DNA of 64,000 bases from Pedobacter fastidiosus (GTDB taxonomy: Bacteria > Bacteroidota > Bacteroidia > Sphingobacteriales > Sphingobacteriaceae). The stretch spans positions 1-64,000 of the forward strand of contig NZ_JACRYL010000011.1 of NCBI RefSeq assembly GCF_014306625.1. The letters run 5' to 3'. The position numbers and the translations under genes are program-made. Position 1 is the stretch's first letter, and every line of letters begins with the position of its first letter. Shown here piece after piece: positions 3,015 to 18,350 of the stretch. Under the pieces are notes generated by a model, which was not told where the DNA came from, did not search any database, and saw nothing but the letters and a program-made list of their open reading frames with translations.

Positions 3015-6000
3015 TTACATATTTCTTCTATATTGCCCTCCAACCTCGTAAAGGGCTTTACTAATTTGCCCCAAGGAACAAATCTTACAAACCTCCATTA
3101 ACTGTTCAAAAATATTATCACCGGCAACAGCAGATTTCTGGAGTTGTTTTAATAGGCCAGCAGATTTATCTTCATTTCTATCTTGAAACTTTTGGAGGGC
3201 TGAAATTTGATATTGCTTTTCTTCTTCAGTTGCACGAATAACTTCACCAGGTATAATTGTTGGAGAACCATTTTTGTTTAAAAAAGTATTGACACCAACT
3301 ATAGGATATTCTCCGGTATGTTTTAGAGTTTCATAGTACAAACTTTCTTCCTGAATTTTGCCACGTTGATACATGGTTTCCATAGCACCGAGAACTCCAC
3401 CACGATCGTTAATTCTTTTGAATTCGGCCAGAACTGCATTCTCAACTAATTCTGTTAATTCTTCTATGATAAAAGCTCCTTGTAATGGATTTTCATTTTT
3501 TGCTAAACCTAATTCTCGATTAATAATGAGTTGAATGGCCATTGCCCTACGCACAGATTCTTCAGTGGGGGTGGTAATCGCCTCATCATAGGCATTGGTG
3601 TGAAGAGAATTACAGTTATCATATATTGCATACAATGCTTGTAAAGTTGTGCGAATATCGTTAAAGTCTATCTCTTGAGCGTGCAAAGATCGGCCAGATG
3701 TTTGGATATGATATTTTAATTTTTGAGAACGGTCATTTCCCTTATATTTATTTTTGATTGCTTTTGCCCAGATTCGTCTTGCTACACGACCGATAACTGC
3801 GTATTCCGGATCAATTCCATTAGAGAAAAAGAAAGAGAGATTTGGAGCAAAATCATCAATATGCATCCCACGACTTAAATAATATTCTACAAAAGTAAAT
3901 CCATTACTTAATGTAAAGGCAAGTTGCGAAATTGGGTTGGCGCCTGCTTCAGCAATGTGATAACCTGAAATAGAAACAGAATAAAAATTTCTAACTTTTT
4001 CATCAATGAAATACTTTTGAATATCGCCCATCATTCTCAAGGCAAATTCTGTTGAGAATATACAGGTATTTTGAGCTTGATCTTCTTTTAAAATATCTGC
4101 TTGAACGGTTCCACGGACTGAACTTATTGCTTTTGCCTTTATTTTTGAATAAACATCTGATGGTAAAACCTGATCTCCTGTTACACCCAAAAGTATTAAT
4201 CCCAAACCATCATTTCCTTCTGGTAAAGTGCCTTCATAAACTGGGCGGTCTATATTTTTATCTTTATAGATGATTGCTATTTTTTCCTGTATCTCAGTTT
4301 GTAAATCATTTTCGATGATGTATTTTTCGCATTGCTGATCAATTGCTACGTTCATGAAAAAGCCCAATAGCATGGGAGCGGGGCCATTTATGGTCATGGA
4401 TACCGATGTAGAAGATGCACAGAGGTCGAAACCTGAATAAAGTTTTTTTGCGTCGTCCAAAGTAGCAATGCTTACTCCCGAGTTTCCAATTTTACCATAG
4501 ATATCTGGGCGAATATGAGGATCTTCACCATAAAGTGTAACGGAATCGAAAGCGGTTGACAAACGGTGAGCAGGCTGACCTAATGATACATAATGGAAAC
4601 GTTTGTTTGTTCTTTCTGGGCCACCTTCTCCAGCAAACATTCTAGTAGGATCTTCTCCTTCGCGTTTTAAAGGGAATACGCCAGCAGCATAAGGGAATTC
4701 TCCGGGAAGATTTTCAGTTAGGAGCCAACGCAAAATATCGCCCCAATCTTCATATCGTGGTAAAGAAACTTTAGGAATGTTCAGTTTAGATAAGGATTCG
4801 TAGTATAGCGGAAGTTTAATTTCCTTATCCCTGACTTTATATATAAAAAACTCTTCTTTATAAGCTTTTTTTGTTTCAGGCCATTGGCGGAGTAGTCTCT
4901 TACATTCTCCATCTAACTGCTCTTCAAAAAAAGTGTAAGCTTCTTTTATTCCATCACCCAAAGAAAGAGATTGATGTTCTTCGGACAAATCAATAACGCC
5001 TTTAAGTTGATACATTTTTCTTGCAATACTAGCTTGCTTATCAACCCATTCATTATACGTTTGGCTAGATTCTGCAATTTCCGCTAAGTATCTAATTCGA
5101 TCTGGCGGAATGATGTAAATCTTTTCTGATTGATCGGAAGTAAGCTCCATTTTTGCATGGAAATCAGTTTGCGTTTTCTCTTTTATTTGTTGCATTAAGG
5201 CTACAAATAAATTATTCATTCCAGGATCGTTAAACTGAGAAGCCATTGTTCCGTAAACGGGAATCTCCTCATCCTTGGCATCAAAAATATTGTGATTTCT
5301 TTTATATTGTTTGCGTACGTCTCGCAAAGCATCCAATGCACCTCTCTTATCAAATTTGTTTATTGCCACTAAATCGGCAAAGTCGAGCATATCGATTTTT
5401 TCCAGTTGAGTTGCAGCACCAAACTCGGGTGTCATAACATAAAGGGAAACATCGCAATGCTCGGTAATTTCTGTATCAGATTGGCCAATTCCAGAAGTTT
5501 CTACAATAATCAAATCGTAGCCCGCCGCCTTGCAGATATCTATACTTTCTTGAACATTTTTTGATAGGGCAAGATTTGCCTGGCGTGTTGCTAGGGATCT
5601 CATATAAACTCTAGGATTATTAATCGCATTCATACGGATTCGATCGCCTAGAAGGGCTCCACCAGTTTTTCTTTTAGATGGATCGACAGAAATAATAGCA
5701 AGCGTTTTATCTTTAACTTCAACAAGAAATCTTCTTACTAACTCATCTACTAAGGAAGATTTACCTGCGCCACCTGTTCCAGTAATTCCTAAAACTGGTG
5801 CTTTATTATTTTTTGAAAGTTTTTTTAACTCATCAACAAATTTTTGTGCACCTTCGGGATCATTTTCTGCAACTGTTATTGCTCCTGCAATTGCTTTAAT
5901 ATCTTTTGATGGGATGGTTTCCAATTCATTGGTGATGCTAGTTTTTGTAATGAAGTCCGTTTTTTGCAACATATCATTGATCATTCCCTGCAAGCCCATT

Positions 6001-6386
6001 TTGCGCCCATCATCTGGAGAATAAATTTTTGAAATTCCATAAGCCTGCAATTCTTCGATTTCCGAAGGAAGAATTACACCTCCACCACCGGCAAATATTT
6101 TAATATGACCCGAACCTCTTTCTTGCAAAAGATCGTGCATGTATTTGAAATATTCGATATGCCCGCCCTGGTAGGAAGTCATCGCAATGCCTTGAACGTC
6201 TTCCTGAATGGCACAATTAACCACTTCATCTACCGAACGGTTGTGACCTAAATGGATAACCTCGGCACCAGATGATTGCAGAATTCGACGCATAATATTA
6301 ATAGTAGCATCATGACCATCAAATAAAGAAGCAGCGGTTACAAAACGTATTTTATTCTTTGGTTTATATATTTCTACTTGTTGCAT
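3015..6386 (-). CDS. icmF: fused isobutyryl-CoA mutase/G-protein chaperone (IcmF type)
   Basis: This is an adenosylcobalamin-dependent carbon-skeleton mutase that probably interconverts isobutyryl-CoA and n-butyryl-CoA. The 1123 residues have the IcmF order. A B12-binding domain spans about 11-145, with DGHDATIN at 23-30 and His25 as the likely cobalt ligand. A MeaB-like GTPase domain follows at about 195-420, with Walker A GTGGAGKS at 203-210 and an NKFD motif. The mutase barrel lies from about 540 to the end. In the substrate pocket the FPYAAGVFP segment carries Phe where methylmalonyl-CoA mutase has Tyr, which favours an isobutyryl-type substrate. The G-domain is thought to load and repair the cofactor. 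No cobalamin riboswitch was recognised upstream. Confidence 0.92.
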
Positions 6387-6404
6387 AGTACGGAATTTTT
6401 TGAT

Positions 6405-6425
6405 TAGGAATTTGAAGAATTCCTA
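6405..6425 (-). promoter_or_regulatory. perfect inverted repeat in the icmF leader
   Basis: TAGGAATT (6405-6412) and AATTCCTA (6418-6425) are separated by TGAAG, 19-39 nt upstream of the icmF ATG. A possible -7 box, TACATTTG on the minus strand (6453-6460), lies just upstream, so the repeat would sit in the 5' leader. It could be an operator for a dimeric repressor or an RNA hairpin. Confidence 0.4.
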
Positions 6426-6515
6426 GACTTTGGCCTATTTATATTTGGTATGCAAATGTAACAAATACTTATAATAGGATTGGTTTTTAATGGTATTGAT
6501 ACATTAATATAACAA

Positions 6516-6555
6516 AAATGCCCCCATTAAGTGTGTATCACTTTTGGGGGCATTT
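6516..6555 (-). terminator. rho-independent terminator of the phosphatase gene
   Basis: AAATGCCCCC and GGGGGCATTT pair around an inner AAGTG/CACTT stem, and the minus-strand copy runs into TTTTTG. It lies 21 bp after the stop of the pafA-like gene and separates it from icmF. Confidence 0.85.
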
Positions 6556-6575
6556 GGAGTTGGTGATTTTAAGCT

Positions 6576-8234
6576 TTATTTATTTGTAATTTCAGTTATA
6601 GGTTCTCCCACACATCCATTTGGCATTTGTATGTGGAGTAAAGCGGCCAATGTTGCCGAAATGTCCGTCATATAATGCGTTTTGTTTGATGCACCTTGTT
6701 TAATGCCCCAGCCCATAAATACCAATGGAATATGTGCATCATAAGGATTCCAGCTTCCGTGAGTGGTACCCGTGCTACCACCATTAAACCAGTTTGGATT
6801 TAGAATGTAATAAAGATCTCCGCTTCTTCTTGCATTGTAGCCATTAGTAATCATCTTTTTCTGAATCTCTGGGATGGTTGCCTGTGCTATTCTTGAAATA
6901 TCAACAACATTTGCAAAGCCATCCATTCTTTTTAAGAATTCAATAGATGCTGCTTTAATTACATCAAAACTTACGGTACCATTATCGGTTTTATCATGAT
7001 CGAAGATGATTTGATTGTTCATCGATTTTAGCACCACATTGTTCACTTTAAATTTTTCATTTAAGAATGCATTTAACTTAAAAACAATATCTCTGTCGCT
7101 AACAACACCTGCAGGGATTTTATTTTCAGCCATGAAACCTGGGACGTGGGCAGCACCATGATCTGCAGTTAAGAATATTGTATAGTTTCCTTTGCCTACT
7201 TTTTTATCTAAATAGTTAAGGAATTCTTCTAAATCTTTATCCAAACGCAAATAAGTATCTTCAGCTTCAATTGAATTTGGTCCATATCCGTGACCTACAT
7301 AATCGGTTGCTGAACAACTCACCGCAAGAAAATCGGTAATGTTATCTTGGCCCAAATCTTCTGATAAAATAGCCAGTTTAGCTAAATCTAAAGTGATTGT
7401 ATTGCCGTACGGTGTACTTCTAATCGCATCAAAGTTTTTATCGATATTTTGCTTAAGCATATGTGGAAAAGTACTTGTTTTTCCTTCATAAACTTTTTCA
7501 TCAGCTGTACTGTTTACGTAGGTGTTAATTGGGTAGAGTGTTTCCCAGTTTTTAGCATAAAACTTATTCGCCAATTTTAATTTATTGTAATCTGCAATCC
7601 AGGTTGGAACTTCTTTCATGTAATATGAACTGGTAATCCAGTTTCCAGTTGTACCTTGATACCAATATGCTGCGTTTGCTGCATGGCCAGCGGGAAGGAT
7701 TGAACCTCTATCTTTTAAAGAAATGCCAATTACTTTACCTCTAAAATTAGTCGCTAACCTAAGTTCGTCTGTAATTGTACTCGTTAGCATGTTTTTAGGA
7801 GACATTTGACCTTCGGGCGATGGGGTACTTCCAACCGTTACTACTGAAGTATCTTCCGTACAATACATATTCTTTTTGGTTTCAGAATCGTACCAATCGT
7901 TTCCAATTATACCGTGAATTGCTGGAACAGAACCTGTATAAATACACGTATGACCGCAAGCCGTATAAGTTGGAGTATAAGGAATGAACGTATTTTCTAC
8001 AGAAAAACCTTCGTTAACCAATCTTTTAAAACCACCATTTGTATAGCGATTATAATATCTGTACAAATAATCCCAGCGCATTTGATCGACTACTAAACCA
8101 ATTACCAACTTTGGTCTTGCAACTTCAGCAGGAAAAGCTTTTGGTTGAGCTGTAGTTGCTTTTTTTGTTTGTGCAGATGCAATAGATAGGGTAAAGAGAG
8201 ATAGGGAAAGGACTAAATAGGATATTTTCTTCAT
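6576..8234 (-). CDS. pafA: PafA-type alkaline phosphatase, secreted
   Basis: It is a periplasmic or secreted phosphomonoesterase of the alkaline phosphatase superfamily. In Bacteroidota, PafA releases phosphate even when phosphate is abundant. A signal peptide (MKKISYLVLSLSLFTLSIASAQ) is clear. The metal and active-site pattern is visible: VVDQMRWDY (Asp50), PTYTACGHT with the likely Thr nucleophile near 91, GNDWYD (Asn112), a LKDRGS motif with the Lys and Arg that contact phosphate in PafA, and DHGAAHVPG near the C terminus. The 552 residues match the family. A strong terminator follows. It begins 66 bp after folC on the same strand, so read-through is possible. Confidence 0.88.
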   Translation of the reverse strand: MKKISYLVLSLSLFTLSIASAQTKKATTAQPKAFPAEVARPKLVIGLVVDQMRWDYLYRYYNRYTNGGFKRLVNEGFSVENTFIPYTPTYTACGHTCIYTGSVPAIHGIIGNDWYDSETKKNMYCTEDTSVVTVGSTPSPEGQMSPKNMLTSTITDELRLATNFRGKVIGISLKDRGSILPAGHAANAAYWYQGTTGNWITSSYYMKEVPTWIADYNKLKLANKFYAKNWETLYPINTYVNSTADEKVYEGKTSTFPHMLKQNIDKNFDAIRSTPYGNTITLDLAKLAILSEDLGQDNITDFLAVSCSATDYVGHGYGPNSIEAEDTYLRLDKDLEEFLNYLDKKVGKGNYTIFLTADHGAAHVPGFMAENKIPAGVVSDRDIVFKLNAFLNEKFKVNNVVLKSMNNQIIFDHDKTDNGTVSFDVIKAASIEFLKRMDGFANVVDISRIAQATIPEIQKKMITNGYNARRSGDLYYILNPNWFNGGSTGTTHGSWNPYDAHIPLVFMGWGIKQGASNKTHYMTDISATLAALLHIQMPNGCVGEPITEITNK

Positions 8235-8300: not shown

Positions 8301-9590
8301 TTATATTGCTTCTGCTACTACAAAAGTACTTCCGCCGATGAATATTAAATCATTAGAACTTGCTGATTCTATTGCTTTTGCCTTTGCCTCGGCAACTGAA
8401 TTAAATTTGTGTCCTTTTAATCCAAATGTAGAAGCTTGTTCTTGTAAATCTTTAACTTCAAGACCACGCTCTAAATCTGGTTTGCAAAAATAATATTTAG
8501 CTTGTTTTGGAAGTAAGGATAGTACTTTGGAGATATCCTTATCTTTCACCATTCCAAAAACCATATGAAGATTTTGGTGTGGTGTTTGAATAATGTTTTT
8601 TACAACTTCAGTTATTCCAGCTTCGTTGTGGCCGGTATCGCAGATAATTAACGGATTTTTACTCAAGGTTTGCCAACGACCTTGTAAGCCGGTTCTTTTT
8701 TTAACTTCTTTCAACCCTTTATAAATACTTTCTATCGAAGTTTTAATTTCGGTTTGCTGATTTAAAATAGCAAAGGTTTCTAAAACTGTCAGAATATTTT
8801 TTGGTTGATAAAGCCCTGTTAAATCACTTTGGAGATTTTTATACTGTGGTTTGTTTCCCCGAAATATAGATAGTGATAGTTTGTTATTTTTTACCTTAAT
8901 CTCTTGAGCTGATAACACTGCATCGGCAAAAATAATCTGGGCGTTCATTTCCTCAGCCTTACTTAAGAAAACGGCTTTTGATTTATCTTGTGTTTCTCCA
9001 ATAACCACTGGCGTATTTTTTTTTATAATGCCCGCTTTTTCTCCGGCGATTTCTTCTATCGTATTACCGAGCATGTTTGTATGGTCTATACTGATGTTGG
9101 TGATTACTGAAATCTCTGGCTGAATGATATTTGTTGAATCCAATCGACCACCCAAACCAACTTCGATAACTGCGACATCAACTTTATGCCTGGCGAAATA
9201 ATCAAAAGCCATTGCTACGGTAACTTCGAAAAAGGAAGGCTCAACTTCTTTTATCAGTTTCTTTTGCTGTTGAACAAATGTTATCACCTCGGCTTTCGCC
9301 ATCATTTTACCATTTATTCGAATGCGTTCGCGAAAATCTTTTAAGTGAGGGGAGGTGTATAAACCGGTTTTATAACCCTGTGCCTGTAAAACCGAAGCAA
9401 GCATATGGGATGTGGAACCTTTACCATTTGTACCTGCAACATGAATACTTTTAAATTTATGCTGAGGATTATCTAAAGCTTCGCAAAAAATTATGGTGTT
9501 GGTTAAATCTTTTTTGAAGGCAGATGCACCAACACGAGTAAACATGGGCAGTTTACTGTATAAATAATCAAGCGTTTGCTGGTAGTTCAA
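8301..9590 (-). CDS. folC: bifunctional folylpolyglutamate synthase/dihydrofolate synthase
   Basis: This ATP-dependent ligase of folate metabolism adds glutamate to dihydropteroate and to reduced folates in the cytoplasm. The Mur-ligase-like P-loop HVAGTNGKGSTSHMLAS, the SPHLKDFRERIRING segment and the C-terminal ICDTGHNEAG motif are all present, and 429 residues is normal. The start appears to be TTG at 9590 (MNYQQTLDYLYSKLP), because the next ATG would remove conserved N-terminal sequence. It is the last gene of the envelope operon above it (39 bp after the TonB-like gene), probably for transcriptional rather than functional reasons. Confidence 0.93.
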   Translation of the reverse strand: MNYQQTLDYLYSKLPMFTRVGASAFKKDLTNTIIFCEALDNPQHKFKSIHVAGTNGKGSTSHMLASVLQAQGYKTGLYTSPHLKDFRERIRINGKMMAKAEVITFVQQQKKLIKEVEPSFFEVTVAMAFDYFARHKVDVAVIEVGLGGRLDSTNIIQPEISVITNISIDHTNMLGNTIEEIAGEKAGIIKKNTPVVIGETQDKSKAVFLSKAEEMNAQIIFADAVLSAQEIKVKNNKLSLSIFRGNKPQYKNLQSDLTGLYQPKNILTVLETFAILNQQTEIKTSIESIYKGLKEVKKRTGLQGRWQTLSKNPLIICDTGHNEAGITEVVKNIIQTPHQNLHMVFGMVKDKDISKVLSLLPKQAKYYFCKPDLERGLEVKDLQEQASTFGLKGHKFNSVAEAKAKAIESASSNDLIFIGGSTFVVAEAI

Positions 9591-9629: not shown

Positions 9630-10445
9630 TTACTTCACTTTAAAGTTAAAAACAACCACACCAGTTTGGCTATCGCCACCTATATCTGTTTTGCTCAAAG
9701 CCGAATTCAAAACGGCTTGAATACATTTGTTAACCAATTCAGTATCTGTAATTGTAGAACCTTTTAACTCTTGATTGGCTCTTGTAATTGTTCCCGATTT
9801 ATTAAAATAAATCCTTATGGCAACCTTGCCGGTTTTTTGACCATCATCCTTCGGGATAACTAAATTTGAAAAACGACGTAATTCTATAGGTTTATTTCCA
9901 AAACCAGATCCACCTTCTCCATAATTATTTGATAAAGGGTCTCCATTAACAGATCCTTGATTGCCAGCTGTAGTTCCAGTTCCATCGCCACCACCTTGTC
10001 CGGTGCTTTTTTTACCTTTATATAAGGCATTTTGGTTGATAACAGGTTTTGAAGGTTTTTCTTCAGTTGTGGTAGTTGGTGTTGTGGCAGTTGCTTTTTT
10101 AGGTTTGGTATTAATACTCAAAGCTTCCTCAGTATTCTGAGTTTGAATGTCTTTATCGCTACTTTCTGTAGATGTTGTTGGTGTTACTTTTTCTTCAGGA
10201 GTTACCTTATCTGGTTTTTTATTGTTGGCGTTAGGATCTGCAGATGGCTCTTCGATACTTGTGTAATCATCGCCCATTCCTTCTGCCGAAGTTCCATAGT
10301 TTACAACCATGCCACCCATGCCCAGTTCTTCGGGTGGTTGGAAAGTACCAATCACAATAATAAAGCTTATGGCTAGTAAAATAGCCATAATGCCAGTAGA
10401 AATGGCAACTGCTTTTGGATAATTATTTTCTTCTTTATGAGTCAT
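9630..10445 (-). CDS. TonB-like energy transducer
   Basis: It probably carries proton-motive energy from the ExbB/ExbD motor across the periplasm to an outer-membrane partner. One membrane helix lies at about 12-33, after a short cytoplasmic tail. A long low-complexity periplasmic linker rich in Pro, Thr, Lys, Gly and Asn runs to about residue 190. The C-terminal domain (FSNLVIPKDD to FNFKVK) looks like a TonB/TolA-type domain. Its start codon overlaps the exbD stop as TAATG, so the two are translationally coupled. Its partner is likely the barrel protein encoded upstream in the same operon; the exact family is less certain. Confidence 0.8.
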   Translation of the reverse strand: MTHKEENNYPKAVAISTGIMAILLAISFIIVIGTFQPPEELGMGGMVVNYGTSAEGMGDDYTSIEEPSADPNANNKKPDKVTPEEKVTPTTSTESSDKDIQTQNTEEALSINTKPKKATATTPTTTTEEKPSKPVINQNALYKGKKSTGQGGGDGTGTTAGNQGSVNGDPLSNNYGEGGSGFGNKPIELRRFSNLVIPKDDGQKTGKVAIRIYFNKSGTITRANQELKGSTITDTELVNKCIQAVLNSALSKTDIGGDSQTGVVVFNFKVK

Positions 10446-10846
10446 TATTTCTTAGGCTCAACAGCTACAACAAGCTTTAATTTTAATTTGTTTGCAATAT
10501 CATTCACTACAAATCCATCCTGATAAGTTACATTACGAGATACATATAACAAAATCGTCATATCTGGCGCCAATTTTTGATAACCTTCTAATACGGGCTG
10601 TAATTCTTCTATAGTTACTGGTTTCTTATCAACGAAATATTTTAAATTTTCGTCTATCGTTACGGTAACTGCTTTTTTAGCAGTAGATTGTTGTCCGCTA
10701 GAGGATTGTGGCAAGAGTAATTTAACTACTGTTGGATTTACCACGGCAGAGGCCAATAAGAAAAACAACATCAGAAAGAACATGATATCGTTCAGTGCTG
10801 ATGTATGTACTTCTACACTTCCTTTTGTTCTTTTGCGTAAATTCAT
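10445..10846 (-). CDS. exbD: ExbD/TolR-type biopolymer transport protein
   Basis: This is the small proton-channel subunit that works with ExbB to power TonB-type proteins. Its 133 residues comprise a basic N terminus, one membrane helix at about 19-42 (ALNDIMFFLMLFFLLAS, Asp20 being the expected proton-carrying aspartate) and a periplasmic domain ending LKLVVAVEPKK. It overlaps exbB upstream and the TonB-like gene downstream by one base each (TAATG), implying fixed stoichiometry. Confidence 0.92.
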   Translation of the reverse strand: MNLRKRTKGSVEVHTSALNDIMFFLMLFFLLASAVVNPTVVKLLLPQSSSGQQSTAKKAVTVTIDENLKYFVDKKPVTIEELQPVLEGYQKLAPDMTILLYVSRNVTYQDGFVVNDIANKLKLKLVVAVEPKK

Positions 10847-11556
10847 TATTTGCCTGGTTCTTCTAATAAATCAATAAAATCAATTGCATCGGTTTCCATT
10901 TTAAGAATAATTTTCTCTACCATAATATTTAAAATGTGGTATAAAACATAAGCGATAATCCCGATAATTAGTCCAGTTGCCGAAGTAATCATTTTGGTAT
11001 ATAAACCACCAGAAATGGTTCCGATTTCAATGGCTCCTTTAATTGATACCTGGTGGAAAATGGTAATAACCCCAACAATTGTACCTACGAAACCAAGCAT
11101 TGGGGCAATACCCGCAACGATTCCTAAAATGCTGATATTTTTTTCCAGTTTGGAAACTTCTAATTTACCAACATTCTCAATGGCGCCTTCAATGTCTTTA
11201 ATTGGGCGACCAATGCGTTTTAGACCTTTTTGCAACATACGAGAGAGAGGAGAGTTGTTGTTCCTCAACATTGCAGACGCACCTTCTAAGTTTCCTGATT
11301 GGATATAGGATCTAACTTGAACCATTAAATTAGATTCATCTTTAGTTGCTTTTTTGATGGTTAAATAACGCTCAAAGAAAATAACCAAAGCTAAAACGGC
11401 TAAGAAAGCCAATGGAATCATTACCCACCCACCTTTAAAAAGCAAATCAATAAAATGTATTTCTGGTGCGGGCTGACTTAAATTTGGATTAACCGCGGTT
11501 GCCGTATCCTGCAATGCTTTTGTTGTATCTTGAATAATTGTTAATAAGGTTGTCAT
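10846..11556 (-). CDS. exbB: ExbB/TolQ/MotA-family proton channel
   Basis: This is the pentameric inner-membrane motor subunit. It has a periplasmic N-terminal stretch, a first membrane helix at about 39-62 (GGWVMIPLAFLAVLALVIFF), a cytoplasmic loop, and two helices near 145-168 and 183-207 with the family signature GIVAGIAPMLGFVGTIVGV. The 236 residues are normal for the family. It overlaps the SPOR/HU gene upstream and exbD downstream by single bases (TAATG), so three successive junctions of the operon are coupled. Confidence 0.93.
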   Translation of the reverse strand: MTTLLTIIQDTTKALQDTATAVNPNLSQPAPEIHFIDLLFKGGWVMIPLAFLAVLALVIFFERYLTIKKATKDESNLMVQVRSYIQSGNLEGASAMLRNNNSPLSRMLQKGLKRIGRPIKDIEGAIENVGKLEVSKLEKNISILGIVAGIAPMLGFVGTIVGVITIFHQVSIKGAIEIGTISGGLYTKMITSATGLIIGIIAYVLYHILNIMVEKIILKMETDAIDFIDLLEEPGK

Positions 11557-13052
11557 TACGGTGTGTTTATCTGTTTAATATCTAATTCTTTTATTCTAAC
11601 TTTTTTACTTAATGCTGGCCTTGCTTCTAAAGCCTCTTTTTCTGTTTTAAAAGAAGCTATACTTACCTTTTTATATGGCCCTTCAATCGGTACTATTTTG
11701 GCCACTATGCCATATCCTTTCATTTGCTGTACAAATTGCTCAGCCTTTTTAGTTGTTTTGAAAGATGCTCCAATAATTTCATAACTTAAGGTTCCAGTTT
11801 TTGTACCTAGAACTACAGGTTTTGTTGGAACAACAGCAACTTTTTTAACAGTATCTTTTTTCGGTATAACCTGATTGGCTTTTAAAATGCTATCTGTTTT
11901 TGCGATGGAATCTTGCTTTGCTTTATTTGTATCTATTACAACTTTAGGCGAATCAATAATTACTGCTGGAGTTGGGCTTTTCTCTATTTTGGCAATTGGA
12001 TTGAACAGCTCTGGATTGATGAAATAAACAATTGCGCCAATAACAATTAAAATTAAGATGCCAATAAATATTTTAGGCCAAACTGATTTGCTTTCTGCTT
12101 CAATTGGTTCATCCAAAAGTGGGTCATGACCAAATCGATTTGGATGTTCAGCATGCTGTTCCTTAATAAACTCTGGTGCTTCAATTATTTCTTCGTGAGG
12201 AACTACTTCTTCAGTTGAAACAACTTCATCATGTAAATTAATGTAAGTTTTGGGTGTTTCAACTTCTGGTGTATGTCCGAAACGGTTGGGGTTTTCCTCA
12301 TGTTGTTCTTTTATAAATTCTGGAACAACAACCTCTTCTTCGTTTGTGTTGACTAAACTCTCTTCAGATTCTGGTGTGTGCCCGAAACGATCAGGATTTT
12401 CTTCGTGTTGCTCTTTTATAAATTCTGGAACCTCAATTTCATCTTCTGATGGTTTTTCAGAATGTTTTAGTGTATTCTTAAGATCGTCTTGAACCTCATC
12501 TAACTCTACATTTTCTACGACAGGAAAAACATTTTCAGTCTCTTCAATTTTATCGTTTTGCTTTGAAGGTGCTTCTGCAATTTCATCGTAAACTTCCTCT
12601 TCATCTTCTTTTTGGGCTGAAGATATTACTTCCTCAGGAGGATGTACAGTTTCTGCAATGGTAGGTAAGCCAAAAAATTCTGATCCGTAATTTATATCAT
12701 TCGATGGCTCAAAACTTAAGCCATCATGCTCCGTATAAAATAATCTTCCGGTGTTTTCGAGTTCAGCTTCATGCTCAATTTCCAGCTTTTTATTAACATC
12801 CTCAACAAATTGAGAAATGTAATATTTAGCACTTTCGAGAGAGATATTTCTTTTACTAGAAATAAAGCTGGCTAAAGCTTCTTCATCTTTAACTTCCTTT
12901 GAAAACTGCAAAGTATATCCCGGAGGTAAAAACGATTGTTTTTCCTTATCGTATCTGCCCGGAAATTTCTTTTTATAGAAAGTTCCCAAGCCAGTAATAC
13001 CGACTTCTTTGCTTTGTTGCAAAAGTTCTAAAAGGTATGATAAGATATCCAT
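11556..13052 (-). CDS. HU-CCDC81/SPOR-domain transmembrane protein
   Basis: This protein joins a cytoplasmic HU-like region to a periplasmic SPOR domain. Residues 1-130 match the paired bacterial HU-CCDC81 domains (LLQQSKEVGITGLGTFYKKK and the following segment). An acidic linker at 135-320 contains three copies of a motif EFIKEQHxExPxRFGHxP at about 209-226, 244-261 and 293-310. A membrane helix lies at about 325-345, and a SPOR domain at 418-490 probably binds denuded septal peptidoglycan. HU/SPOR fusions have been proposed to link nucleoid and division site. The start codon is ATG, and the stop overlaps exbB. The linker repeats are unusual and their role is unknown. Confidence 0.85.
   Translation of the reverse strand: MDILSYLLELLQQSKEVGITGLGTFYKKKFPGRYDKEKQSFLPPGYTLQFSKEVKDEEALASFISSKRNISLESAKYYISQFVEDVNKKLEIEHEAELENTGRLFYTEHDGLSFEPSNDINYGSEFFGLPTIAETVHPPEEVISSAQKEDEEEVYDEIAEAPSKQNDKIEETENVFPVVENVELDEVQDDLKNTLKHSEKPSEDEIEVPEFIKEQHEENPDRFGHTPESEESLVNTNEEEVVVPEFIKEQHEENPNRFGHTPEVETPKTYINLHDEVVSTEEVVPHEEIIEAPEFIKEQHAEHPNRFGHDPLLDEPIEAESKSVWPKIFIGILILIVIGAIVYFINPELFNPIAKIEKSPTPAVIIDSPKVVIDTNKAKQDSIAKTDSILKANQVIPKKDTVKKVAVVPTKPVVLGTKTGTLSYEIIGASFKTTKKAEQFVQQMKGYGIVAKIVPIEGPYKKVSIASFKTEKEALEARPALSKKVRIKELDIKQINTP
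12120..12434 (-). repeat. three in-frame copies of an EFIKEQH linker motif
   Basis: Three related segments at 12120-12182, 12264-12329 and 12369-12434 each encode about 21 residues around PEFIKEQHxExPxRFGHxP. The two distal copies (12264-12434) are nearly identical; the one closest to the membrane is more divergent. They lie in the acidic cytoplasmic linker before the membrane helix. Confidence 0.9.
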
Positions 13053-13106
13053 TCGGGTAAAATTAAGCGTTTTTTCTAAACCTACACAATAATTAATTTA
13101 ATGTGT

Positions 13107-14804
13107 TTAAAATGAATAAGTTAGTCCGCCGAAAATATTAAATCCATTTACCTGATAAAATAAATACTTGCTGTAATTGCTATTTAAGATATTATTTGCC
13201 TTTGCAAAAACAGAGAATTTGTTGTTGATTCTATATTCTGCACCTAAACCCAAATCAACATAACCTTTAACAGTAACAATAGATTCTATTGCTGGATTTG
13301 GAACTACATATTGCAACGGACTAACTGGAGCAGAAACATTTATTTTAGCTTTTACATCATCTTGAATAACTACACCAGCATTAAAGCTTAGTTTTTTATT
13401 GTAGGTATAAACGAAGTTGGAGCTTACTTTTAATCCCGGTTTAAACCAGCTGTAAGTTTCTTGAGCAGGTTTCCAATCATCAATATTTAATTTTCCAGTC
13501 CATTTTAATGCATCGCTAACTTGAACAGAGATTTCGCCTTCTAAGCCAGTTAACTTTGTTTTGCCGAAATCATAAATAACATCGAACTTATTAAAATCTG
13601 TATAGTTATTTACGAAAAGAGGCATGTCATCAAATTGCTTAACGTAAACACGAGCTTTATAACCAAAACCTGGTCCGCCTGTACCTTTAATACCAGCACT
13701 GAAACTTAATTTCTCAACCGTATTTTTAATTAAGATATTGCTATTTAACCAAGGGTTTTCATCTGTGAAACCTTTTAAAGAATTTCTATTGACATCGCCT
13801 TTTACTTCTCCAAAAATCTGTAGATAATCTGGAATCAAAGTGAAGTCTGCCGTAACTGCAGGAAAGATTCTTGAGCTACTGAAAGCACCAAACTCTTGAA
13901 CGAAATTAATTCCTGCCGTAATTTTTGCGCCTTTAACCTGTAAACGGATGTATGGATTTAAACGCAATAAGTTATTACCAACTCTTGTTAAAGCGTCTTT
14001 AGTGTTTCCGAATTCTGCTGCTGCTGCTAAACCTAAATTTAATGAGCTAATGCGTTTATTTAAATAACCATTAACCGTAAAATAATTTTCTTTAGCATTG
14101 AATTTATCGCTCCATACGTATCCATCAGCTTTTAACGCATAACTTAAAGCATCTTCATCTTCTGTAAAGTTTTTAACCAATTCACCTTCGGCTTCGAACA
14201 TCGTTAAAGCCTGTTTTTCTGGATTAGGATTTAAAGTTGGGCGATCGTTATCGATGCCATAAAAATGAACACCATTGCGCTCGAAGTTAACCCGACCGCT
14301 AACCGTATTTTCATCTAAAATACTGCGACCAAAAACACTAAGTTGTTGGCTGCTGCTATTTTGTTTGTTTAATTTACCTTCCTGACTGAAGTGTTTAAAG
14401 TAACCGCCAACTTGCAGGCCTTCATCTTTTCCGGAGTTAAAATAAGCTTCACCTAAAAGCGTAGCTTGAGAACCAAATGCGCCCTTAACATAATTGTTAA
14501 TTAGCTCTGTTGCCTTTTCATCTACCAGTTGTTGTGCCTGTAGTTTTTTAATATCGCTATTCAGCTCTAATTTTCTATCCATTAGGCTGTAATTTAATTT
14601 TGCTTTGTATGTTTTTACATCATCCAAATTAGGGCTTCTTCTCAGCTTTACAGCTTCTGCCAAAATTGGTTTATAAGGACGTACAACTTCAATCTCTTCG
14701 TTAACTGCAGCTTTTTCTTCAGGTTTCTTATCCTGTGCCTGGGCTGTCATTAATCCGGCAGCCAAGAAAAAAAGTGAACTATATATATATTTAATCGACT
14801 TCAT
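13107..14804 (-). CDS. outer-membrane beta-barrel protein, TonB-receptor-like
   Basis: It is probably an outer-membrane barrel served by the ExbB/ExbD/TonB-like motor of the same operon. A signal peptide ends near AQAQ (24). A short conserved-looking periplasmic segment follows, EEIEVVRPYKPILAEAVKL (36-54), which could be the contact point with the motor. The remainder is rich in alternating aromatic strands and ends NIFGGLTYSF, with the C-terminal Phe typical of barrels. At 565 residues it is shorter than a normal TonB-dependent receptor, and I see no clear plug domain. It starts 4 bp after the TPR gene. The cargo or substrate is unknown. Confidence 0.72.
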   Translation of the reverse strand: MKSIKYIYSSLFFLAAGLMTAQAQDKKPEEKAAVNEEIEVVRPYKPILAEAVKLRRSPNLDDVKTYKAKLNYSLMDRKLELNSDIKKLQAQQLVDEKATELINNYVKGAFGSQATLLGEAYFNSGKDEGLQVGGYFKHFSQEGKLNKQNSSSQQLSVFGRSILDENTVSGRVNFERNGVHFYGIDNDRPTLNPNPEKQALTMFEAEGELVKNFTEDEDALSYALKADGYVWSDKFNAKENYFTVNGYLNKRISSLNLGLAAAAEFGNTKDALTRVGNNLLRLNPYIRLQVKGAKITAGINFVQEFGAFSSSRIFPAVTADFTLIPDYLQIFGEVKGDVNRNSLKGFTDENPWLNSNILIKNTVEKLSFSAGIKGTGGPGFGYKARVYVKQFDDMPLFVNNYTDFNKFDVIYDFGKTKLTGLEGEISVQVSDALKWTGKLNIDDWKPAQETYSWFKPGLKVSSNFVYTYNKKLSFNAGVVIQDDVKAKINVSAPVSPLQYVVPNPAIESIVTVKGYVDLGLGAEYRINNKFSVFAKANNILNSNYSKYLFYQVNGFNIFGGLTYSF

Positions 14805-14808
14805 AATT

Positions 14809-17800
14809 CTACTTCTTCTGGTTTAGTTTTTCTAATTTTTGTTTCGCAGTTGGGATAATATCATCCTTACCATCATAATTATCGATAATACTTAGAAGTG
14901 TACTTTTTGCCTGTAAATTATCTTTCAGCGCAACATAGTTATCAGATAATAAGATAAATGCTTTAGCTACCCAATAATCATAAGAAGCCATATTGTTAAT
15001 AATGTCGAAACACGATTTTGATGAAGTTTTATAATCACCCTTAGTATATTCCAATTGAGCTAAATTATATTTTGCTTCTGCGGCTGCAATAGTTTTAGTA
15101 GTTGCAACAACATTTTTGAATTCTTTAACCGCGGTTGTTGTATCTCCTTTTAATAGATAAGCCTTACCTGAGTATAATCCAGAACTGTTTTTTTCTTCTT
15201 CAGAAGCTTTTTCAGATTCTTTGGTTAATTGCGCATATTTCAACATATCATCAGGCATACTAAGTGCAGTATATGCTTTTAATAAACTGTTAATTGCGTA
15301 ACTATAATGTGCTTTATAATCTGTTGTGGTTTCTAATCTTTTCAGATAAACAATGGCCTCATTGTATTTTTTCTGATCCAAGAATACTTGTGAAATACTC
15401 AATAAAGAGCGTTCAGTATAGTCACTTGTCCAATCGTTCAAAATAAATTCGTAATCTGCAACGGCTTCATCTGGGCGCTTAAGTTTAACTAAAGATTCTG
15501 CTCTGATAAACTTGGCTTCTTTCTCATGAATTGCTTTCGGAAATTTATCGAAGTATGCATTAACAGCTTGCAAAGCACCGTTTGCATCACCCTTAAGATA
15601 TAGGTTGTTGGCAGCGCTGAATATTATATTATCCTGCTCTGCATTTGAGTAATTTCCAAGTGGAGTAGTTCCTGCGTAAGCAATAAAGCCATTTGCATCA
15701 CCTTTATCAACATAAATATTCTTGATCGATTCTAAGGCTTGCTTAGCTTCATCCGCACTCGGATAATCGCGGATAACTTTTTTGAAAGATTCTAAAGCCG
15801 CATCATCCTGATCTTGATTGTACTGAACCAAACCAATTGTTACTAAAGCTTTTGGAACATAACTGCTTCTTGGATATTTTGCAACGAGTTCTACCAAATC
15901 TGATTTAGATTTATCGAAATCGCCTTTGTTAAAGTAGGTATAGGCAGTTTCGAAACCAGCATCATCAGCGTAGTTAGAGTTAGGGAATGTTTTCAACAAG
16001 CTTTGCATGGTAGCAATTTTTGTATCATACTGAGTTTCCAAACCTTGGATCATTCCTTTTTGAAATAGGGCGTAATCTTCTGCGCTCGTTTTGCGACTGA
16101 TGATTTTGTTATAGTTCGCCATTGCATCGCCATAGTTTTTATTTACAAAATATGAATCGGCTAAGCGGATGGTTGCATCATCAATTGTTTTTTGATCTTT
16201 ATCGTTTCCGGCTAAAAATTTCTCAAAATAATTAGCTGCTGTGCTATATTTTTCATCTTCGAAAGCCGCATACGCTAAAGCATAGTTTGCAAAATTGTAA
16301 ACGCCGGTTTTATCGGCATCGGGCATTTTTAAGAACAGTTCGAATGTTTTAACAGCTTCGCTAAATTTACGAAGCTCGTACATCGATTCGGCTTTCCAAT
16401 AGGTGCTTAAAGCATGGATTTCATTGTCTTCAGGGAATTTTTCCGAACGTAAAAACATAGCTAATGCATTTGGGAAAGCCCTTTCGTTATAAAATTCTAA
16501 TCCTCGGAAATAAGTAACCTTTTGATAAGCTTCCTTGGCTTCTAATGTTTTATTCGGAATTGGCTCCAGAATATCAACAGCAGCTTGGTAATTTTTTGTC
16601 GTTAATAAAACTTCACCCAATAATGTTTTGGCTTCATTAATTTTTTTAGAGTTCGGGAACTGTTTTAAGAAACCTTGGGTGGCATCTAAAGCCTGCTGAT
16701 GAAATTCTAACTCGTAACTTAACTTGGCATAGTTTAACCAAGCTTCTTCTTGAATGGCTTTATCAAAACTTAATCTAGATGCTCTGAAAAACGCACTTTG
16801 TGCTTTAGGTTTATCACCCAGTTGAATAAATGCTTTACCTAAAGTGTGCATTCCGTTTTGAAGATAAACATCATCCGAATTAAGCTTCTCTAAAACAGAA
16901 ACAGATTCTTTATACTTTTTATTTTGGAATAAAGAATAGCCGTATTGATAAATAAAGAGGTTGTTTTTGGTGTCGCTTTTATCTTTTGCATAAAATTCGG
17001 CAAAATATTTTTCAGCATTTTTGAACTCAGATTTTGCGAAATAAGATGCTGCTACCAAGCTTAACATTTCTGGTTCGAACTGCTGTTTGGTTTTTTGCAT
17101 TGCAGGGATCGCATAACTAATCACATCATCATAACGCTCATCTAAATAATACATAGATGTGATGTAATACGGATAGCTAGCCTCATAAGTCGGAGAGCCT
17201 TTTAGCTTTTCAAAATTTGCTAGCGCCGTTTTGTACTCTTTGTTTAAATAATTAATGTAAGCAAAATAGTAGGTCGCACTTTCTTGAAAATCGCCTTTTT
17301 CTTTTTTAACCTGTTCAAATAAAGGTTCAGCCTTTTCATAATCTTTTAGCTCAAAATAGGAGTAGCCTTGTTTAAATTGATACTCATTGCGTTGCTTTCC
17401 AGAAAGAGTAGAAGGATCTGTTTTTTCGAACCATTCTAATGCTTTTTTATAGTTTTTTTGGTTGAAATAAGTTCTTCCAACGTAAAAATAAGCAAGTTTG
17501 GTATTAGGATTTAGAGGGTAATCGCGAATAAAAGCCTGAAATAAACTTTCGGCATCACTGTTAGTAAGTTCTAAAGCGCAAACAGCTGCGTAGAACTTAG
17601 CATTTTCTTTAAGTAAAGATAATTCCGCATTACTCTCGGTTTGTGTAGACGGTTTAAAGCGTTGTTGCTCAACAAGTTTAAACTGTTGCGAGGCCGCGGT
17701 GTATTTTTCCTTATCTAATAATTCTAAACCCGTTTGATAGTTTTTATTGAGGTTTTGTACCGCGCTAACTTGAGCGTATGTACTAAAACTTCCTGCTAAA

Positions 17801-17832
17801 AATAGCGGAATTAGTAAGTATTTTTTCTGCAT
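14809..17832 (-). CDS. large periplasmic tetratricopeptide-repeat protein
   Basis: About 1008 residues, made almost entirely of TPR-like helical pairs (recurring patterns such as AYFYVGRTYFNQKNYKKALEW), after a signal peptide MQKKYLLIPLFLAGSFSTYAQ. TPR superhelices act as protein-binding scaffolds; here it is probably periplasmic or anchored to the outer-membrane barrel encoded next. The frame can open at a TTG at 17841, but the ATG at 17832 gives the better signal peptide. It is the first gene of the TPR-barrel-HU/SPOR-exbB-exbD-tonB-folC operon, with only 4 bp to the barrel gene. No enzymatic motif is visible. Confidence 0.85.
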   Translation of the reverse strand: MQKKYLLIPLFLAGSFSTYAQVSAVQNLNKNYQTGLELLDKEKYTAASQQFKLVEQQRFKPSTQTESNAELSLLKENAKFYAAVCALELTNSDAESLFQAFIRDYPLNPNTKLAYFYVGRTYFNQKNYKKALEWFEKTDPSTLSGKQRNEYQFKQGYSYFELKDYEKAEPLFEQVKKEKGDFQESATYYFAYINYLNKEYKTALANFEKLKGSPTYEASYPYYITSMYYLDERYDDVISYAIPAMQKTKQQFEPEMLSLVAASYFAKSEFKNAEKYFAEFYAKDKSDTKNNLFIYQYGYSLFQNKKYKESVSVLEKLNSDDVYLQNGMHTLGKAFIQLGDKPKAQSAFFRASRLSFDKAIQEEAWLNYAKLSYELEFHQQALDATQGFLKQFPNSKKINEAKTLLGEVLLTTKNYQAAVDILEPIPNKTLEAKEAYQKVTYFRGLEFYNERAFPNALAMFLRSEKFPEDNEIHALSTYWKAESMYELRKFSEAVKTFELFLKMPDADKTGVYNFANYALAYAAFEDEKYSTAANYFEKFLAGNDKDQKTIDDATIRLADSYFVNKNYGDAMANYNKIISRKTSAEDYALFQKGMIQGLETQYDTKIATMQSLLKTFPNSNYADDAGFETAYTYFNKGDFDKSKSDLVELVAKYPRSSYVPKALVTIGLVQYNQDQDDAALESFKKVIRDYPSADEAKQALESIKNIYVDKGDANGFIAYAGTTPLGNYSNAEQDNIIFSAANNLYLKGDANGALQAVNAYFDKFPKAIHEKEAKFIRAESLVKLKRPDEAVADYEFILNDWTSDYTERSLLSISQVFLDQKKYNEAIVYLKRLETTTDYKAHYSYAINSLLKAYTALSMPDDMLKYAQLTKESEKASEEEKNSSGLYSGKAYLLKGDTTTAVKEFKNVVATTKTIAAAEAKYNLAQLEYTKGDYKTSSKSCFDIINNMASYDYWVAKAFILLSDNYVALKDNLQAKSTLLSIIDNYDGKDDIIPTAKQKLEKLNQKK

Positions 17833-17955
17833 TGGTTTCAAATATGGTTGGTACTAAATTATAAATAGTATCAAAGCTTATCAACAGAAGTAATTAACAT
17901 CTGTTAATAACACAAATAAACGAAGGGATTTTTGGTTTGGTATTAGGAAGATGGC

Positions 17956-18208
17956 GATTGTTGAAAATTAGGCTGGCTCAATGGTTCATTGGTCATTTGT
18001 TCATTGGTGGAATGAGCGCTAAAAAAAGCATATCGAGGATTGTTGAAAATTAGACTAGTTCAAAGGTTCATTGGTCATTTGTTCATTGGTGGAATGAGCG
18101 CTAAAAAAAACATATCGAGGATTGTTGAAAATTAGACTAGTTCAAAGGTTCATTGGTCTTTTGTTCATTGGTGGAATGAGCGCTAAAAAAACATATCAAG
18201 GATTGTTT
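17956..18208. repeat. 82-bp tandem repeat, three copies
   Basis: Three direct copies begin at 17956, 18038 and 18120 (periods 82, 82, 81), with a fragment at 18201. Each contains GTTCATTGGTCATTTGTTCATTGG and GGAATGAGCGCTAAAAAA. Copies 2 and 3 are nearly identical and copy 1 differs at a few sites. At 18300-18350 an inverted relative of the same words (ACTAATGACCAATGAACTAATG) lies before the pyrB stop. The rest of the 17833-18350 gap holds no gene that I can support. Confidence 0.9.
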
Positions 18209-18350
18209 ACAGGTTAATTGTTTAAACGCTTATTCGTTATGTGCTGAAAAATTATAATAAGACATAAAAATTAATCATGCGCAATTTGCTACGCTTTACA
18301 CTAATGACCAATGAACTAATGGCTAATAAACTAATGACTAATGAACTATC

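Follow-up and report, generated by a model that had tools for sequence, protein, structure and literature searches.

The window, a stretch of 64,000 nucleotides from Pedobacter fastidiosus (contig NZ_JACRYL010000011.1, positions 1 to 64,000), contains a cluster of six genes on the minus strand. According to the open reading frame calls and Pfam, they encode in order a giant TPR protein, an outer-membrane barrel, an HU/SPOR protein, ExbB, ExbD and a TonB-like protein, and are followed by folC (Table 1). The positions assigned to the six genes in the initial annotation agree with the open reading frames and with the Pfam and fold evidence, and its three TAATG overlaps could be read directly at the HU-SPOR/ExbB, ExbB/ExbD and ExbD/TonB junctions. 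Its length of 1008 residues for the TPR protein has to be corrected to the value in Table 1. The TPR/barrel junction reads TAG-AATT-ATG, with a gap of 4 nt, and the coordinates place the barrel and HU/SPOR genes 54 nt apart. The annotation as an eight-kilobase operon holds for the six close-packed genes; the operon may be longer, because folC starts 39 nt past the TonB-like gene and accompanies the complete set of six in 65 of the 80 Sphingobacteriaceae loci described below. The folC product is not thought to be a component of the machine. Between pyrB and the TPR gene lie an 82-bp tandem repeat of 3.1 copies (17956-18207) and a 15-bp repeat (18300-18348), and positions 3015-8234 of the window carry genes for an IcmF-type fused mutase/GTPase and a PafA alkaline phosphatase.

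Table 1. Features of the six-gene cluster and of folC (coordinates in the window).
Feature	Position (strand)	Description	Basis
Giant TPR protein	14809..17832 (-)	1007 aa from ATG at 17832; alternative TTG start at 17841	ORF, Pfam
Plugless outer-membrane barrel of TonB-dependent-transporter type	13107..14804 (-)	565 aa	Predicted fold, profile matches
TonB-box-like segment, barrel residues 38-58	14631..14693 (-)	Contains best conserved 15-residue windows	Conservation
Predicted disordered stretch, barrel residues 19-102	14499..14750 (-)	Usual place of the plug	pLDDT <50
HU-CCDC81 - membrane helix - SPOR protein	11556..13052 (-)	498 aa	Pfam
ExbB/TolQ-type proton-channel subunit	10846..11556 (-)		Pfam, NCBIfam
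ExbD/TolR-type subunit	10445..10846 (-)		Pfam, NCBIfam, Asp motif
TonB/TolA-type force transducer	9630..10445 (-)	Helix 9-33, disordered linker, TonB C-terminal fold ~190-268	
folC	8301..9590 (-)	Conserved downstream neighbour	Pfam

The giant protein matches many TPR models of Pfam. Its N-terminus resembles by eye a signal peptide, ending in ...STYAQ, and the protein is therefore read as periplasmic. In NCBIfam it scores 193.9 bits against tol_pal_ybgF (cut-off 90.1) and 55.2 bits against PorW/SprE, which is below the cut-off of 250. The closest solved structure is that of the cell division coordinator CpoB (6g5s, E 4.9e-9); the likeness to CpoB/YbgF may reflect the TPR repeats alone. A second TPR-family gene lies between the TPR and barrel genes of Parapedobacter soli (L169), an order shown by two loci, and another genome (G042, C1:1170325-1172766) has an additional TPR match that adjoins a match to the barrel tail.

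The HU/SPOR protein scores above the Pfam cut-offs for HU-CCDC81_bac_1, HU-CCDC81_bac_2 and SPOR, and we read its HU-CCDC81 part as cytoplasmic and its SPOR part as periplasmic. Among the 18 members scanned, the window's included, SPOR is present in 15 and HU-CCDC81 was detected in 10; two HU proteins of family f19 (L197, L198) have no SPOR part by eye. HU-CCDC81 (PF18175) matches at E 0.001 in 149 of 296 genomes, in 54 of them above the cut-off, and the weak matches were not trusted since the controls E. coli and B. subtilis also match. No barrel adjoins the further HU matches L210 to L213. Outside the window's own class, a small separate gene of the HU/SPOR group (64-91 residues) is found between barrel and HU/SPOR at L090-L094, L096, L102, L108, L199, L201-L204, L207 and L208; the one in L090 matches Pfam Bac_DNA_binding.

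The motor subunits match the Pfam families MotA_ExbB (2.9e-22) and ExbD (1.3e-21), and remain below the equivalog cut-offs for TolQ (68.2 of 221 bits) and TolR (30.3 of 127.3). The Asp motif is present in 43 of 43 ExbD relatives of 110-160 aa. A second ExbB is encoded elsewhere in the genome, on the same contig as three ExbD genes, and is 22% identical to the cluster ExbB; the cluster ExbBs of 13 other genomes are 30-76% identical to that of the window. The cluster motor is a different one from this second ExbB/ExbD set. For the TonB-like protein, Pfam gave no match at E 0.1 or below. Its membrane helix is followed by a long linker and then by a strand-strand-helix-strand fold, for which the best 16 Foldseek rows are all TonB or TolA C-terminal domains with probabilities of 0.91-1.00 (best E 8.2e-3, none at 0.001), and the profile of its family matches TonB (6i97_D) at 2.2e-8. 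All three parts of an ExbB-ExbD-TonB motor, namely ExbB, ExbD and the TonB C-terminal fold, were found. The TonB/TolA helix has a histidine; one lies within residues 10-40 in 20 of 41 transducer relatives, and the window's protein has none there. The TonB-like profile matched 19 of the 20 genomes queried.

The barrel protein likewise has no Pfam match at E 0.1 or below, and was modelled with AlphaFold2 from 70 sequences (mean pLDDT 77.6). The predicted structure consists of a disordered stretch, whose first residues overlap the end of the signal peptide, and a barrel that extends from there to the C-terminus. All 50 Foldseek matches listed are TonB-dependent transporters (BtuB, 5.2e-17), as are those listed by VIA, which aligns the barrel with BtuB and FhuA at a Z of 22.7 (rmsd 3.7, 395 aligned). 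DSSP assigns 24 strands of useful length to the model, the first two of which are possibly one strand, and the predicted fold is that of a 22-strand transporter barrel. An N-terminal plug domain was found neither by Pfam nor in the model, where residues 19-102 are disordered, nor in the trimmed VIA alignment, in which residues 100-565 superimpose on BtuB 134-594, past the plug of BtuB; when the low-confidence tail is kept, some rows begin at model residue 38-50 and extend into the plug region of the target. The initial reading of this protein as an outer-membrane barrel without an obvious plug is thus borne out by Pfam, predicted disorder and the transporter-barrel fold. The family profile of the barrel matches transporter sequences (PfeA, 1.6e-9) and gives a further match to 9hmf_C at 0.051, and a single-sequence search with the tail yielded nothing useful.

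Within the barrel protein of Sphingobacteriaceae, conservation peaks in the disordered tail: residues 44-58 show a conservation of 0.88 against a protein mean of 0.56 across 70 proteins. In relatives, the segments that follow the signal peptide include EEIVVTTAYKP, PQDIEIRSEF, LPEFIVTG and similar ones, which we take to resemble TonB boxes. Similar boxes were seen by eye, uncounted, in many of the 69 barrels sampled more widely; some barrels, such as those of L098 and L105, have no clear box by eye, and in a few mis-started ORFs the stretch inspected stops short of it. A 1047-residue ORF among the fetched loci, taken for an ordinary receptor, has LEQVIVTAYGG. Most genomes carry one strong copy of the barrel, and three (G033, G364 and G378) carry two. 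At L012 (G005) the barrel match has one TAA counted inside, and at L072 and L209 an ORF of ~288 residues lies between TPR and barrel.

The conservation of the cluster was analyzed in a family sample, for which the TPR alignment served as bait and the best 80 loci were kept, all from Sphingobacteriaceae by title or near them. The genome scan named Pedobacter and other Sphingobacteriaceae among the relatives. All six genes occur in order in 70 of these loci; seven of the remaining ten are on short or cut stretches, and three (L110, L113, L165) keep TPR and barrel, with other genes over the remaining 8 kb. In L110, L111, L113 and L165, which are close Pedobacter relatives, additional gene blocks lie between barrel and HU/SPOR; those of L113 and L165 include a 1033-residue gene that is SusC-like by eye, and ~2.7 kb separates the two genes in L111.

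A broader sample of 73 loci with the barrel leaves out the window, one duplicate, two receptor-like-only loci and the second barrel in L051. The TPR gene lies directly upstream in 59 of these and HU/SPOR downstream in 42, ExbB and ExbD are both present in 30, and all six genes in 12. In 7 loci no TonB gene was detected past ExbD, and 4 that retain HU-SPOR and TonB showed no ExbB/ExbD. Genomes of 16 families beyond the class contribute 27 of the 73 loci, with the full or partial cluster. HU/SPOR is present in 16 of the 17 outside-class loci that were picked by the barrel. The other ten (L199-L208) were picked by an HU-CCDC81 match, so that their HU-SPOR presence is partly due to selection; they contain the barrel in 10/10 and the TPR gene in 9/10. 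ExbB and ExbD occur in 21 of the 27. Inside the class, HU/SPOR adjoins the barrel in 16 of 46 loci and does not in 30, some of which are cut by contig ends. Because HU/SPOR and ExbB/ExbD are mostly kept outside the class, with HU/SPOR beside the barrel in only 16 of 46 loci inside it, the long cluster looks ancestral and fragmented in parts of the window's own class. Parts of it survive where it is broken up: of 13 loci of the TonB-like gene retrieved from other genomes of the class, 11 have ExbB and ExbD ahead of this gene and 8 have folC behind it. The gene order, which the initial annotation had proposed to compare across Bacteroidota, is thus not restricted to this genome, and its conservation far outside the source genome places the six-gene cluster beyond chance and rules out a merely local arrangement.

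With the window's barrel as query, relatives were detected in 105 of 296 genomes of the phylum and in 72 of 73 of its own class; the sole in-class exception (G308) has an HU/SPOR-family gene with no adjoining barrel. The barrel profile matches 255 of the 296 genomes at 1e-10; the barrel matches of family f32 (~1e-10 to 1e-20) were too weak to be counted as relatives. An even draw of 80 class genomes was then evaluated at thresholds of 1e-10 for the barrel and 1e-60 for the TPR protein. Each was found in 74, both in 73 and neither in 5, one of which is a 0.5 Mb genome; G382 has the TPR protein alone and G354 the barrel alone, as a weak match (9.9e-28). The co-occurrence gives a Fisher p of 1.5e-6, uncorrected for kinship or assembly gaps. 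In ten examined genomes whose barrel cluster has no adjacent TPR gene, this gene is located elsewhere in 10/10.

We further clustered 765 neighbour genes of 74 loci. The commonest group is an ABC ATPase, present in 14 loci. In 12 of these loci, from 7 families, it is encoded on the strand opposite the TPR gene, mostly head to head with it and otherwise one to few genes off; L204, where it occupies another place, and L065, whose ATPase is LolD-like, are not counted. FtsE is the best NCBIfam model for all 8 of these 12 that were scanned, with 222-250 bits, below the curated cut-off of 264.85. An identity of the recurrent ATPase as LolD was rejected, since FtsE ranks first in 8 of 9 scanned and LolD in L065 only. 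FtsK is the second gene upstream of the barrel in 9 loci, which belong to two families; in L098 it is more distant (domains checked in L090). A LolA-like gene is found near the barrel in 9 loci, with weak matches: one of the eight scanned (L108) passes the Pfam cut-off and L090 shows no match. A flippase-like gene (LPG_synthase_TM, checked in L090) occurs in 11 loci, and in L191 and L192 a thioesterase beside HU/SPOR is followed by an M23/EnvC-like gene (4HBT and Peptidase_M23, Pfam-checked in L191). Sphingobacteriaceae have pyrR, pyrB and folC as neighbours, not FtsE/FtsK. Other frequent neighbours, among them folC, gcvT, gyrB and, by eye, a DNA polymerase subunit, are functionally uninformative. 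The FtsE and FtsK neighbourhoods may each stem from one inherited event, and the link to division that gene context provides is suggestive only.

With a probability of roughly one half, we interpret the cluster as a proton-driven, Tol-like trans-envelope machine whose hold on the outer membrane is a plugless barrel bearing a TonB-box-like segment; a CpoB-like TPR protein would serve as scaffold, alongside a SPOR protein. Sequence and predicted fold lend fairly good support to the mechanics of such a machine. To judge by their families and folds, the ExbB/ExbD-type proteins of the inner membrane would draw on the proton gradient to set the TonB-like protein in motion, and the C-terminal domain of the latter would grip the TonB-box-like segment of the barrel tail by strand addition, as in TonB-transporter pairs; the two conserved ends are consistent with such a contact. 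The motor is likely to pull the barrel. In a plugless barrel there is no gate for the pull to open; the force would act on the outer membrane itself, with the barrel as a handle. The TPR protein probably acts with the barrel, and would be positioned beneath it or its tail on the periplasmic side as a scaffold or cap that, in the manner of CpoB, could couple the force to the wall machinery. The SPOR domain would recruit the assembly to septal wall glycan, while the HU-CCDC81 part would face the chromosome. The anticipated outcome is that the outer membrane would constrict in a coupled manner as the cell divides, a task performed by Tol-Pal in Proteobacteria. The dedicated energised envelope device proposed initially is supported by the conservation, the distinct motor, the TonB-type domain, the plugless barrel with its N-terminal box and the TPR/barrel co-occurrence. 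Of the functions then considered, constriction or division is the one towards which the context leans, with about even chances of being right; transport of lipids or lipoproteins is possible, and uptake is unlikely.

The main rival is an energised export of lipoproteins or lipids, in which surface lipoproteins, lipids or further envelope components would pass through the plugless barrel. The TPR protein would seal this channel from beneath, and a pull on the box would open it. A wide, empty barrel suits a conduit, the LolA-like genes and the LolD-like gene of L065 would fit, as would the class-wide presence, and the route of surface lipoproteins across the outer membrane of Bacteroidota is described as unsettled in the available part of PMC12611786. 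We nevertheless regard export as unlikely: it leaves the SPOR and HU parts and the FtsE/FtsK neighbours unexplained, the cluster is found in distant classes too, and no substrate-binding part was seen in it. The barrel and TonB folds would equally match a TonB-dependent nutrient uptake system, a reading that we consider quite improbable. The single strong copy of most genomes and the class-wide distribution argue against it, and with the plug absent there is no known transporter gate or substrate site. An ordinary uptake system was rejected on the missing plug, the disordered tail and the other ExbB/ExbD set of the genome.

Type IX secretion and gliding also involve large TPR proteins and proton motors. 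An accessory role in either would be in keeping with these parts and with the sub-cut-off PorW/SprE match; it is very improbable, as that match is explained by TPR repeats and none of the type IX genes was recognised by eye in the 16 largest neighbour groups. Membership in the Bacteroidota BAM complex, which has BamG as an additional, essential barrel, is extremely improbable. In the available parts of the Bacteroidota BAM papers, BamG is described as an outer-membrane barrel that is essential in this group and whose N-terminal extension is conserved, a likeness to the cluster barrel. It is also described there as a 14-strand relative of FadL, which makes it unlikely that the cluster barrel is BamG. 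The cluster barrel matches transporters among the matches listed, with no BAM chain among its sequence matches, and an identity with BamG, known here by description only, was rejected on fold and sequence matches.

Among the papers listed by a literature search whose scope left out bioRxiv and most subscription journals, there was none on the TPR/barrel/motor set, no experiment on the six genes and no earlier description of a plugless barrel as an outer-membrane handle. According to the available part of PMC12204202, a 2025 paper that does not name the cluster there, tol-pal loci are not identifiable in Bacteroidetes. For the tethering and drawing-in of their outer membrane, the class-wide TPR/barrel pair with its motor and box provides concrete candidate genes. 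We tentatively propose, at somewhat less than even odds, a Bacteroidota-wide replacement of Tol-Pal, in which a proton motor would draw the outer membrane inward by means of the plugless barrel handle, a giant CpoB-like scaffold and an HU/SPOR protein reaching from chromosome to septum.

A comparison of the Tol-like machine proposed here with known systems reveals both likenesses and differences. With Tol-Pal it shares a proton motor with a TonB/TolA-type transducer, a match at the superfamily level only, as well as a TPR protein whose YbgF/CpoB-like character may lie in its repeats alone, a wall-binding partner and, in some relatives, division-gene neighbours. By contrast, the cluster has no TolB or Pal, its outer-membrane end is a transmembrane barrel rather than a lipoprotein, and a SPOR/HU membrane protein is added. 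Pfam found no OmpA-like gene or Pal among the six cluster genes; TolB_N was not found in the source genome, and occurs in 2 of 80 class genomes, both above the cut-off, one of them (G277) with Bacteroides-like gene content; the control Bacteroides ihuae also matches. On these absences, the cluster is not classed as Tol-Pal. PorE, a proposed outer-membrane-wall tether of Bacteroidetes described in the available part of PMC12204202 as a single lipoprotein that combines parts resembling CpoB, TolB and Pal, is a candidate for the same missing Tol-Pal function; none of the six cluster genes has its combined make-up. The conserved barrel with a conserved N-terminal extension recalls BamG, from which it differs in fold and strand number, and no motor is named for BAM in the available parts of those papers. 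The Ton system with BtuB and FhuA shares ExbB, ExbD, the TonB C-terminal fold, a transporter-type barrel and a TonB-box-like segment. Unlike it, the cluster has a plugless barrel and a giant TPR partner, is present as one strong copy in most genomes and is widespread in the class. If the proposed reading is true, a transporter barrel with a TonB-box-like segment and no plug would put TonB force to use for mechanics instead of transport gating.
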